64,000 nucleotides of DNA, from NCBI RefSeq assembly GCF_014203095.1, contig NZ_JACHIG010000013.1, positions 1 to 64,000 of the forward strand. The letters are read 5' to 3'. The stretch's first letter is position 1, and every line of letters begins with the position of its first letter. This stretch comes from Prosthecobacter vanneervenii (GTDB lineage Bacteria; Verrucomicrobiota; Verrucomicrobiia; Verrucomicrobiales; Verrucomicrobiaceae). The notes beneath the pieces are model-generated. The model was not told the origin of the DNA. It ran no database searches and worked only from the letters and a program-made list of their open reading frames with translations. Positions 11,956 to 15,116 of this stretch are shown here, piece by piece. The position numbers were made by a program, and so were the translations under genes.

Positions 11956-14262
11956 ATGAAACTGCCGCTCCTTTCAGCCGCTTTGCTGGTAATGGCTTTG
12001 CCTACTCTGGCCCAGCAGTCGGAAACACTGCCGGACACCCAGCCGCTGATCAAAGACGGGGACATCTCCGAGCAGATGCATGCGGCGGCGTTGGAAGACA
12101 TGGATCAGCTCATCACCGATTCGGTGAAAACCCGTGCAAAGCACTGGCATCGCAACGTCTCTTCCCCGCAAGCTTACGTCGAGTCCATCCGTGAAAACCG
12201 CGAGCACTTCCGGCACATCATCGGTCTCAAGGACAAGCGCGTTCCCGTGGCGCTGGAACGCTACGGCGACGAGACCAATCTTGCCCTCGTCGGCAAGACC
12301 AAGACCTACCGCGTCTATCAGGTGCGCTGGCCGGTGCTGGAGCAGGTTTCTGGCGAAGGCCTGCTGCTGGAGCCCAAGGGCAAGCCTCGTGGTTACATCA
12401 TCGCCATCCCGGATGCAGATCAGACGCCCGAGCAGATCGCCGGTCTTGCTGGCGGCGTGCCCGCAGAGGCCCAGATCGCCCGCCGCTTTGTGGAAAACGG
12501 CTTCGCCGTCATCGTGCCCGTTTTGATCAACCGCAGCGACGCTGGCTCCGGCAATCCGGCCATCCTCATGACGAACATGCCGCATCGTGAGTGGATTCAT
12601 CGCCAGGCCTATATGATGGGCCGCCACATCATCGGTTACGAAGTGCAGAAGGTGCTCGCGCTTGTGGACTGGGTGAACATTCACCGTCACGACCAGATTG
12701 GCGTGGCCGGTTATGGCGAGGGCGGCCTCATCGCCATGTATGCGGCTGCGGTGGATACCCGCATCGACGCCGCATTGGTCAGCGGTTACTTCAAATCCCG
12801 CCAGCGTACCTGGCGCGAACCTCTCTACCGCAATGTCTGGGGCCTGCTCGCCGAGTTCGGCGACGCTGAGATCGCCTCTCTCATCGCTCCTCGCGGCCTC
12901 GTCATTCATTACACGGATGAGCCGGATGTGGACGGCCCTCCCGAGCCCAAGGGCAAGAAAAGCCAGGCCGCACCAGGCAGGCTCAGCACGCCTGAATTCG
13001 ACGAAGTTGAGGAGGAATACCTGCGCATCGACTCCCTCGTGCCCGCCAGCCTGCAGCGTCGTTCGCTTGTGCGCAGCGATGCCGCTGCCGCCAACGCCCT
13101 GGCCAAACTCCTTAAGACCGACGCAAACATGGCCCTCTCCAAGGAACTGCCGCAAAACCTGCGCCAGACTTATCTGCCCGCCGTGCGCCAGCTCGCGCAG
13201 ATGAAGGAGCTTGAGGCCCATGTGCAGCGTCTTCTTCGCGGCTCCGACCAGGTCCGCAATGAGTTCTATCTCTACAAGATCATGCCCGAGTTCCGCAACG
13301 AAGCCTGGACCTACGCCCAGTTTGCCGACAAAAAGCCGGACAAATTCATCACAGCTTCCAAAGAGTTCCGCAAAACTTTCTGGGATGACGTCATTGGTCG
13401 CATCGACTCACCGCTGCCCACCCCCAAGCCCCGCACGCGCAAGATCTACGACAAGCCCAAGTGGACAGGTTACGAGGTCGTGCTGGATGTCGGCGGCGAA
13501 GGCTTCGCCTGGGGCGTGCTCCTGCTTCCCAAAGATCTGCAGCCCGGAGAGAAGCGCCCCGTCGTCGTCTGCCAGCATGGCCGCAATGGCGTGCCGTCAG
13601 ATGTCATCGAGGGAGACAAACCTGCTTACCATGACTTTGCTGCGCATCTGGCGGAACGCGGCTTCATCACCCTCGCGCCGCACAATCTCTACAAGGTTGA
13701 GGATCAATACCGCACCCTCTCCCGCAAGGGCAATACTGTGAAAGCCTCCATGTTCTCCGTCATGTTGCGGCATCACGAGCAGTGGCTGAACTGGCTCGCC
13801 TCGCTGCCGCAGGTGGATGAAAAACGCGTCGGTTTCTACGGTCTGAGCTACGGCGGAGAATCTGCCGTCCGTATTCCTCCGCTGCTGGACGGCTACTGTC
13901 TTTCCATCTGCTCCGGCGATTTCAACGACTGGACCCGCAAGGTGGCCACCACCGAGGACAAGCACAGCTTCATGTTCACCGACGAGTGGGAGATGCCCTA
14001 CTTCAACATGGGCAGCACCTTCAGCTACGCCGAGCTCACCTACCTGATGTTCCCCCGACCCTTCATGGTCGAGCGCGGTCACCACGACGGCGTCTCCATC
14101 GACCCCTGGGTGGCCTACGAGTACGCCAAGACACGCTGGCTCTACGCCCAGTTTGGCCAGGAGGACCGCACCGAGATCGAGTTCTTCAACGGCGGCCATA
14201 CCATCAACGGCCAGGGCACCTTCGAGTTCCTGCACAAACAGCTCAACTGGCCCAAGCGCTAG
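11956..14262 (+). CDS. Secreted tandem alpha/beta-hydrolase (dienelactone hydrolase/acetyl-xylan-esterase like)
   Basis: The 768-residue protein has a signal peptide (MKLPLLSAALLVMALPTLAQQ) and two hydrolase-like halves. In the N-terminal half the nucleophile elbow reads GYGEGG near residue 254, with Glu where Ser is expected, so this half is probably not catalytic. The C-terminal half has KRPVVVCQHG, then GLSYGGES near residue 631 with the nucleophile Ser, and a final GGHTINGQ with the catalytic His. PVC bacteria have many such esterases acting on plant or algal polysaccharide esters; the substrate here is inferred. The stop codon lies inside the left end of a 167-bp palindrome. Confidence 0.85.
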   Translation: MKLPLLSAALLVMALPTLAQQSETLPDTQPLIKDGDISEQMHAAALEDMDQLITDSVKTRAKHWHRNVSSPQAYVESIRENREHFRHIIGLKDKRVPVALERYGDETNLALVGKTKTYRVYQVRWPVLEQVSGEGLLLEPKGKPRGYIIAIPDADQTPEQIAGLAGGVPAEAQIARRFVENGFAVIVPVLINRSDAGSGNPAILMTNMPHREWIHRQAYMMGRHIIGYEVQKVLALVDWVNIHRHDQIGVAGYGEGGLIAMYAAAVDTRIDAALVSGYFKSRQRTWREPLYRNVWGLLAEFGDAEIASLIAPRGLVIHYTDEPDVDGPPEPKGKKSQAAPGRLSTPEFDEVEEEYLRIDSLVPASLQRRSLVRSDAAAANALAKLLKTDANMALSKELPQNLRQTYLPAVRQLAQMKELEAHVQRLLRGSDQVRNEFYLYKIMPEFRNEAWTYAQFADKKPDKFITASKEFRKTFWDDVIGRIDSPLPTPKPRTRKIYDKPKWTGYEVVLDVGGEGFAWGVLLLPKDLQPGEKRPVVVCQHGRNGVPSDVIEGDKPAYHDFAAHLAERGFITLAPHNLYKVEDQYRTLSRKGNTVKASMFSVMLRHHEQWLNWLASLPQVDEKRVGFYGLSYGGESAVRIPPLLDGYCLSICSGDFNDWTRKVATTEDKHSFMFTDEWEMPYFNMGSTFSYAELTYLMFPRPFMVERGHHDGVSIDPWVAYEYAKTRWLYAQFGQEDRTEIEFFNGGHTINGQGTFEFLHKQLNWPKR

Positions 14263-14427
14263 ACCTGTTCTCGAAAAGAATGTCCGATTGAACCGGCGAG
14301 CGCAGCGGTCCCAGTGGCAAGGCGGGAGCGCCGCCTGCTATTTAAAAATAACAGGCAAGCGACCAACGCAGCCAATGGGGCCGCTCCGCCGCTCGGGCAA
14401 GGTGACAGGCTTTTCGAGGACTGGTCT
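14261..14427. repeat. 167-bp imperfect palindrome (MITE-like) starting on the esterase stop codon
   Basis: Bases 14261-14278 and 14410-14427 are inverted repeats matching at 16 of 18 positions (AGACC..GT.CTCGAAAAG). Pairing continues inward (ACCGG..GCGGTCCCA..TGGC against GCCAATGGGGCCGC) and ends at a central stem GCCTG.TATTT/AAATA.CAGGC (14333-14356). The centres of the outer and inner arms coincide at 14344, so the whole element folds on itself. It encodes nothing. It could be a non-autonomous mobile element or a large 3' hairpin. Confidence 0.7.
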
Positions 14428-14439
14428 AACGCCCCCATA

Positions 14440-14510
14440 GTGGTCCGCACAGTCCTCTGTGCGGCTCGCAAGCTCGCTGCGTTCCAAGCCACCCTTCGAA
14501 TGCGCAGAAT
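14440..14510. repeat. Short palindromic repeat fragment
   Basis: A hairpin with arms GTCCGCACAG/CTGTGCGG (about 14442-14463) is followed by CTCGCAAGCTCGCTGCG. It resembles dispersed hairpin repeats of PVC genomes. It fills the gap between the 167-bp palindrome and the GNAT gene. Confidence 0.4.
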
Positions 14511-14531
14511 CCAGCGCTCGCTCCCGTCTGG

Positions 14532-15116
14532 CTACAGCTTCTTCGTCCAATACGTCAGCGTCTTCGGAGACTCCTCATCTTCCCCGATTTCCTTCCATAC
14601 AAACGTGGCCTGCAACTCTGGATGCCGCACGTACCCCTGGCTGCGCCAGAATTCATCCAGCGGTCGATATCCCTGCGGACGCAGCGGGTGCGTCTCCGGG
14701 CGGTCCACGGCGCAGAAGGTGCTGAGCTTCAGACCCAGCGCTCTGGCATGCGCCTCACGACGCACAAAGAACTCCTTGCCGATGCCTTGGCCGCGATATT
14801 CCGGCAGCAGGATCGATTCGCCGAAATAACAGATTGTGGAGATGTCATAGCCACCCTCAACAAACGGGGCTTTGAATTCCGGACCCTCATCTGGCATCGG
14901 CAGGCACGTGGTGGCACCCACCACCTTTTCCCCATCAAACACCAGCACCACGAGGCTGCCCGCTGATCTCACATACGTGCCCAGGTAATCCCGCTCATTT
15001 TCCAGATTGCCGATGTAAAGATACGGATACTCATGAAAAACCGCGATGCGCAGCGCACCCAGAGCATCAATGTGCGGAGCCAGTTCGGCGCCGTGGAAGT
15101 TTTGCAGACGAAGCAT
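14532..15116 (-). CDS. GNAT-family N-acetyltransferase
   Basis: The 194-residue protein has the GNAT acetyl-CoA site: a central strand FGESILLPEYRGQGIGKEFFVRRE with the RGQGIG pyrophosphate loop, and LKLSTFCAVDRP as the next strand. VVLVFDGEKVVGATTCLP is the preceding strand pair. The acceptor substrate cannot be read from the sequence. It starts 2 bases after sufE ends and is the third gene of a tight minus-strand operon (pseudokinase-sufE-GNAT). Confidence 0.88.
   Translation of the reverse strand: MLRLQNFHGAELAPHIDALGALRIAVFHEYPYLYIGNLENERDYLGTYVRSAGSLVVLVFDGEKVVGATTCLPMPDEGPEFKAPFVEGGYDISTICYFGESILLPEYRGQGIGKEFFVRREAHARALGLKLSTFCAVDRPETHPLRPQGYRPLDEFWRSQGYVRHPELQATFVWKEIGEDEESPKTLTYWTKKL

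Follow-up and report, generated by a model that had tools for sequence, protein, structure and literature searches.

A probable IS630-type MITE family in Prosthecobacter with an excess of copies at stop codons

A long palindrome that begins on the stop codon of a gene in Prosthecobacter vanneervenii is very probably a non-autonomous MITE of the IS630/Tc1-mariner type that is moved by an IS630 transposase and for which stop codons are tolerated, over-represented sites. It lies within 64,000 nucleotides of contig NZ_JACHIG010000013.1, the whole stretch of DNA analysed here (the window). The initial annotation had offered a MITE inserted at the gene end as one of several readings; many copies, a full-length transposon whose ends match, TA on either side and element-free orthologous sites make this the best-supported one. 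An unexplained palindrome is thereby assigned to a recognised kind of mobile DNA with a likely mover, and it is a clear example of a transposon that, through its own ends, restores the stop codon into which it inserts.

Anatomy, copies and candidate mover

The palindrome described at 14261–14427 is present: its outer 18-bp arms, which start at 14261 and 14427, agree at 16 of 18 positions, and both the centre and the start on a stop codon are as first described (Table 1). An inverted-repeat comparison gives arms of 29 nt (14256–14284 and 14404–14432) that are 83% complementary. Aligned globally with its own reverse complement, the element is 70% identical and is therefore an imperfect palindrome. 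Alignment with other copies places the borders at 14260–14428, TA included; the 165 bp between the two TAs leave no room for a transposase gene. The upstream gene scores below the cut-off for the acetyl-xylan-esterase model (AXE1). An inverted-repeat scan of the window for others (at least 24 bp, seed 12) returned none, at a setting so strict that it misses this MITE too and is uninformative, and an Rfam search of 14000–14700 up to E = 1 gave no matches. A second, unrelated short palindromic repeat (GTGGTCCGCACAGTCCTCTGTGCGG...), REP/BIME-like, adjoins the MITE at 14430–14480; it has 53 matches in the genome (itself included), several of them as inverted pairs about 30–180 bp apart, and occurs in relatives as well.

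Table 1. Features of the proposed MITE and the gene upstream of it (window positions).
Feature	Position	Strand	Basis
Upstream gene, 768 aa, dienelactone-hydrolase family	11956–14262	+	Pfam DLH above cut-off
Stop codon TAG of upstream gene: target TA plus first G of element	14260–14262	+	
Left TA target duplication; bases 1–2 of upstream stop codon	14260–14261		Aligned copies; element-free orthologous sites have TAG here
Body of proposed MITE, 165 bp, imperfect palindrome without transposase gene	14262–14426	+	Sequence, copies, folding
Left terminal inverted repeat; with TA, TAGACCTGTTCTCGAAAAGAATGTC	14262–14284	+	23/25 against left IS630 end in same genome
Central hairpin, GCCTGCTATTTAAAAATAACAGGC	14333–14356		5 of 9 pairs of matching consensus helix changed on both sides between copies
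Right terminal inverted repeat; with TA, TAGACCAGTCCTCGAAAAGCCTGTC	14404–14426	−	19–20/25 against ends of same-genome IS630 element
Right TA target duplication	14427–14428		Aligned copies

A genome-wide search for the arms together with a matching full-length transposon had been proposed as a check; the genome has many copies and also such a transposon. The genome (G000; 6.66 Mb in 33 contigs) holds at least 22 near-full-length copies, the window copy included, and 7 partial matches that stand outside the copy classification; with 40 of 54 candidates scored, the copy number is a lower bound. The other near-full-length copies show 85–98% identity. All 22 are dispersed copies with common borders, and 18 have TA at both ends; one or both terminal TAs are altered in L020, L021, L027 and L029. 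When the terminal inverted repeat was used as a search pattern with up to 3 mismatches, 51 sites matched, the majority being ends of these copies, while the reversed pattern, run as a control, matched once. Two copies (L012:2976–3220 and L019:2952–3196) also have flanks in common on both sides (90% identity over 50 bp, 92% over 26 bp); either the surroundings were copied along with the element or the element entered another short repeat there. A further dispersed repeat lies near some copies, in the right flanks of L014, L020 and L024 and the left flank of L168 (alignments of about 60–310 bp, 73–86% identity).

Among the 56 genomes that were searched, matches occur in 20 of the 35 from the same genus and in none of the 21 from other genera; in three of the 20 (G003, G010 and G028) the match spans only 35–43 bp. 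A shallower search across the phylum, with two candidates scored per genome, gave matches in 2 of 288 genomes, namely the genome itself and a 36-bp match in G118 that we take for chance; at least three genomes of the same genus (G018, G236 and G247) had no match in this search. For copy statistics we counted 66 copies, 22 from the genome itself and 44 from relatives. The latter are those with both ends recognised among 60 loci fetched from the matches listed for the genus, mostly long ones; the other 16 were left out (L041, L046, L051, L160, L161, L166, L170, L172, L173, L181, L189, L194, L204, L206, L207 and L208), 8 of these being loci with only the end sequences printed. The counted copies are 162–175 bp long, and identity to the window copy falls as low as 65% among 12 non-redundant representatives.

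A search of the genome with the NCBIfam model for IS630 family transposases (NF033545) returned one strong match and one weak, partial match. The strong match (202.5 bits; cut-off 100) lies within a 1129-bp element (L089:1503–2631), apparently intact by sequence, with a 345-codon frame (L089:1526–2563, minus strand) free of internal stops that encodes Pfam DDE_3 and helix-turn-helix domains. The ends of this element, TAGACCGGTTCTCAAAAAGAATGTC and TAGACCGGTTCTCAGAAAGGATGTC, have TA on both sides and agree with the left end of the window MITE at 23/25 and 21/25 positions and with its right end at 20/25 and 19/25, so that the MITE has its terminal inverted repeats in common with a putative autonomous element; four ends of other IS630 elements in the genus agree with the MITE at only 9–10/25. 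The same type of terminal repeat flanks all four near-complete relatives of the transposase (L155–L158), from three Verrucomicrobia(ceae) MAGs, in which a fifth locus (L159) is cut off with one end visible, and it is also found on a decayed transposon copy in G010. The likeness between MITE and transposon is confined to the outer 25–32 bp, with unrelated interiors, and gives no support to an origin of the MITE by simple internal deletion of the IS630 element, which we considered and rejected.

We infer from these matching ends that the L089 transposase mobilises the MITE: it would bind the MITE's terminal repeats and, acting in trans, insert the element at TA dinucleotides with duplication of the TA. 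In the draft assemblies of two relatives with 16 matches each (G001 and G016) an intact transposase of this type was not found; the driver there has been lost, is unassembled or is a different one, and these copies may be stranded. Ends of other IS630 elements were obtained with a script that pairs TA-ended repeats; the pairs were clear for L239 and L240 (25/26 and 24/26), weaker for L241, L243, L246, L247 and L253 (19–20/26) and absent for L242, L244 and L252 (12–13/26). At one of these loci, which lies in G016, an approximately 169-bp MITE-like copy (L246:1271–1439, the same as L131 and L263) has its terminal TA in common with a different IS630 end (TAGAGCATTTTAAATAA); the second copy of that IS630 element (L243) lacks an adjoining MITE-like copy.

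Target site and placement at stop codons

The flanking target duplications that the initial annotation had suggested looking for were found, as TA at both ends. The target is TA, as for IS630/Tc1-mariner elements, and YTAR is the preferred context: A follows the TA in 48% of half-sites compared with 18% in the flanks, and in 47% (37/78 half-sites) for the intergenic copies alone. All 44 counted copies from relatives have TA at both ends, which the script required. Sites without the element accompany the duplications, as it is absent from the relatives viewed at each of four tested loci. At the window locus G001, G002 and G013 lack it, the last having about 300 bp of other sequence there, and all three have TAG at the same codon of the orthologous gene. 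At L010, L022 and L015 it is absent from all nine relatives viewed at each (34 genomes searched per locus, the own genome included). The element is thus multi-copy and missing from viewed relatives, whereas a unique palindrome conserved in place had been named as the pattern that would favour a terminator.

Orthologues at L010 and L022 end exactly at the codon where the element sits (9/9 each). This codon is TGA in 17 of the 18 and TAG in one (G013 at L010), so that the target TA as it was before insertion is visible only at the window locus (G001, G002 and G013) and in G013 at L010; at L010 and L022 the own genome presumably read TAA before insertion. At L015 the orthologues end one codon earlier in 7 of 9 and the other two have diverged; only 4 of the 9 have a right flank that could be matched. 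The flanks of the relatives are only about 76–90% identical to those of the own genome.

Eighteen of the 66 copies supply the stop codon of a neighbouring gene through their terminal TAG. Of the remainder, 39 lie between genes and 9 overlap a called gene differently; gene calls come from a simple codon-score script and no standard gene finder. In six of these 9 a gene start was called within the element (L012, L023, L043, L163, L169 and L200); at L013 the element splits a gene, and at L178 and L187 frames run through it. Insertion is therefore not limited to harmless sites. The supply of TA predicts a ratio of coding to intergenic copies of 52:38, against 9:39 seen, a rarity inside genes such as selection against disruption would give.

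Stop codons hold 5.9% (71/1205) of the non-coding TA sites in the flanks, or 7.1% after weighting by target preference, whereas the stop-codon class makes up 18 of the 57 copies that do not otherwise overlap genes (tail probability 4.9 × 10−8), and 7 of 19 in the own genome alone (2.2 × 10−4). Two of the 18 (L193 and L196) represent a single insertion shared by two species, and one (L205) does not give back a stop codon when the element and one TA are removed; without L205 and one of the pair the class is 16/55 (8.5 × 10−7). Upon such removal 15 of the 18 sites read TAA and 2 read TAG. As the target preference favours a purine after TA (60/78 intergenic half-sites) and would by itself regenerate a stop in about 77% of cases, this agreement at 17 sites is on its own a weak argument. 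An arm bias, suggested by the own genome, where the left arm is at the stop codon in 6 of 7 cases, was rejected over all 18 (8 left, 10 right).

These observations fit a simple scheme. The element reads TA-G from either side, and its insertion into a TAA or TAG stop codon would leave TAG and an unchanged protein. Because either end supplies the TAG, insertions into stop codons would be silent, such sites would be tolerated or preferred, and they would become over-represented among surviving copies. The excess thus probably reflects survival more than active targeting, although survival alone is not an obvious cause of an excess over other intergenic TA sites unless insertions near gene starts and in control regions are purged too.

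Folding and alternative readings

Folding of the RNA, another of the checks proposed at the outset, gave −106.2 kcal/mol for the + strand at 14241–14447 compared with a shuffled mean of −73.8 (z = −7.7), and none of 200 shuffles was as good. Strong folding is common to all 66 copies (z from −4.0 to −15.5; 30 mononucleotide shuffles each). Covariation was measured in an alignment of 20 rows, the 12 non-redundant representatives and 8 hand-picked from the 66 copies. Pairing holds in 94.4% of the cells of its 43 consensus pairs. Both sides have changed in 19 of these pairs, compared with 13.1 in shuffles, of which 1 in 500 reached as many, and double changes fill 80 cells against 27.8 in shuffles. 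All covariation measures drop when the partner is slid by 1–3 columns. As the structure comes from the same alignment and a few subfamilies supply the double-change cells, independent events are far fewer than these counts.

Within the own genome the picture is different from that among subfamilies. The 22 copies carry 111 stem changes over 130 positions and 40 loop changes over 39 positions; the stem changes include 67 that break pairs, 30 one-sided changes that keep them and 7 two-sided changes, 3 of which keep the pair. Stems thus change about as often as loops, and the single copy seems to be under next to no constraint; it is apparently the spreading lineages, rather than resident copies, that preserve the palindrome. 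Transposition itself, repeated rebirth of the element or an effect on RNA may account for this. One possible, though doubtful, explanation is that stop codons are the genomic niche of the family, with ends that repair themselves in TAA or TAG in either orientation and about a third of non-disruptive insertions made there, and that active lineages keep the palindrome because insertion appends a hairpin to the mRNA at the stop codon, where the terminating ribosome would meet it.

The hairpin could instead have been kept as a functional 3' element of the mRNA (a terminator, an RNA stabiliser or an RNase III site) and have spread through benefit to the host, mobility being only its route of arrival. 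The uniform folding, the paired changes (19/43 pairs, 80 cells) and the frequent position directly at gene ends agree with this, as do reports that ERIC affects mRNA stability and that Correia/NEMIS transcripts are cut by RNase III (PMC2229807, in its available portions). We nevertheless consider it unlikely. Own-genome stems vary about as much as loops, the viewed orthologous genes lack the element at these places, and neither arm is preferred overall at stop codons. The large terminator proposed initially is not supported either: the stem is not followed by the run of T expected of an intrinsic terminator with its GC-rich stem, and a terminator scan gave one weak site, on the other strand and within the left arm, compared with 0.6 in shuffles, that is, no signal above chance. 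A scan for sigma-70 promoters gave nothing above shuffles. As a MITE, the element may still serve secondarily as a processed 3' hairpin.

Another reading, which we regard as highly improbable, holds that the stop-codon excess is an artefact of elements that landed inside genes and truncated them in frame, TAG being the first codon read. One of the 18 sites (L205) indeed gives back no stop codon, and orthologues were compared for only 4 of 18. The stronger argument against truncation combines the orthologues at these four loci with the reading frames. Random truncation predicts twice as many out-of-frame as in-frame cases, but 18 genes end at the terminal TAG and only 3 copies (L013, L178 and L187) are entered or crossed by the frame of a gene. 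Orthologues stop at the same codon wherever compared at the window locus (3/3), L010 and L022, and one codon earlier in most cases at L015, by which truncation is largely refuted for the four; that 17 of 18 sites would regenerate TAA or TAG points the same way, within the limit set by target preference. It is scarcely credible that a RAYT (TnpA-REP) transposase, and not an IS630 enzyme, moves the element as a REP/BIME-type repeat: it is palindromic, mostly intergenic and multi-copy, and a separate REP-like repeat adjoins it, but such repeats are defined as palindromes of 20–40 bp linked to a RAYT gene (PMC3733652, as far as its available text goes), whereas this element has 165 bp, long terminal repeats, TA at its ends and, strongest of all, ends that match an IS630 element.

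Comparison with known elements

Several families described in the available portions of the sources cited here have the same anatomy as the proposed MITE. RUP of Streptococcus pneumoniae (107 bp, with IS630-Spn1) is likewise small and non-coding, with a TA target and ends that resemble those of a co-resident IS630 element (PMC2229807, PMC3049150), whereas the window MITE has 165 bp, is GC-rich and palindromic over its whole length, and is concentrated at stop codons. An excess of RUP between convergent genes has been reported (PMC3049150), and insertion into stop codons goes unmentioned in those portions of the two sources. ERIC/MITEPlu5 of Photorhabdus (about 123–127 bp) resembles the MITE in its TA duplication, its very strong secondary structure and its ends, which are like those of a subset of IS630-type transposons (PMC6267812, PMC2229807); it differs in hosts and sequence, and a stop-codon excess is not mentioned for it in the available text of these sources. 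One copy of ERIC/RU-1 reportedly had the opposite outcome, removing the stop codon of a gene and extending the protein (PMC2759123).

Correia/NEMIS elements of Neisseria are MITEs of 107–155 bp with TA at their ends; their hairpin transcripts are cleaved by RNase III (PMC2229807). The window MITE differs from them in sequence and hosts. YPAL/RU-2 of Yersinia (about 168 bp) is similar in size and palindromy, but lacks TA ends and makes variable target duplications of 3–26 bp (PMC2229807). Short and geneless, with TA and IS630-like ends and a strong hairpin, the element agrees in anatomy with the published descriptions of RUP, ERIC/MITEPlu5 and Correia. As it belongs to another host group, it represents a new family within a known kind.

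The less ordinary feature of the family is its placement at stop codons. In the open-licence literature, as far as its text was available, we found no report of this MITE family or of a stop-codon excess, and the terms 'stop codon' and 'IS630' do not occur in the available part of a 2024 review of prokaryotic MITEs (PMC10969869). If the excess holds for other IS630-type elements, it would help to explain hairpin repeats at gene ends without a role for the host. Two other IS630 ends in the genus also begin with TAG: L239 (in G021) and L240 (in G002) represent another IS630 type, with near-perfect ends (TAGTGTGCTGTCAGAGAAGTTCATT and a close variant).
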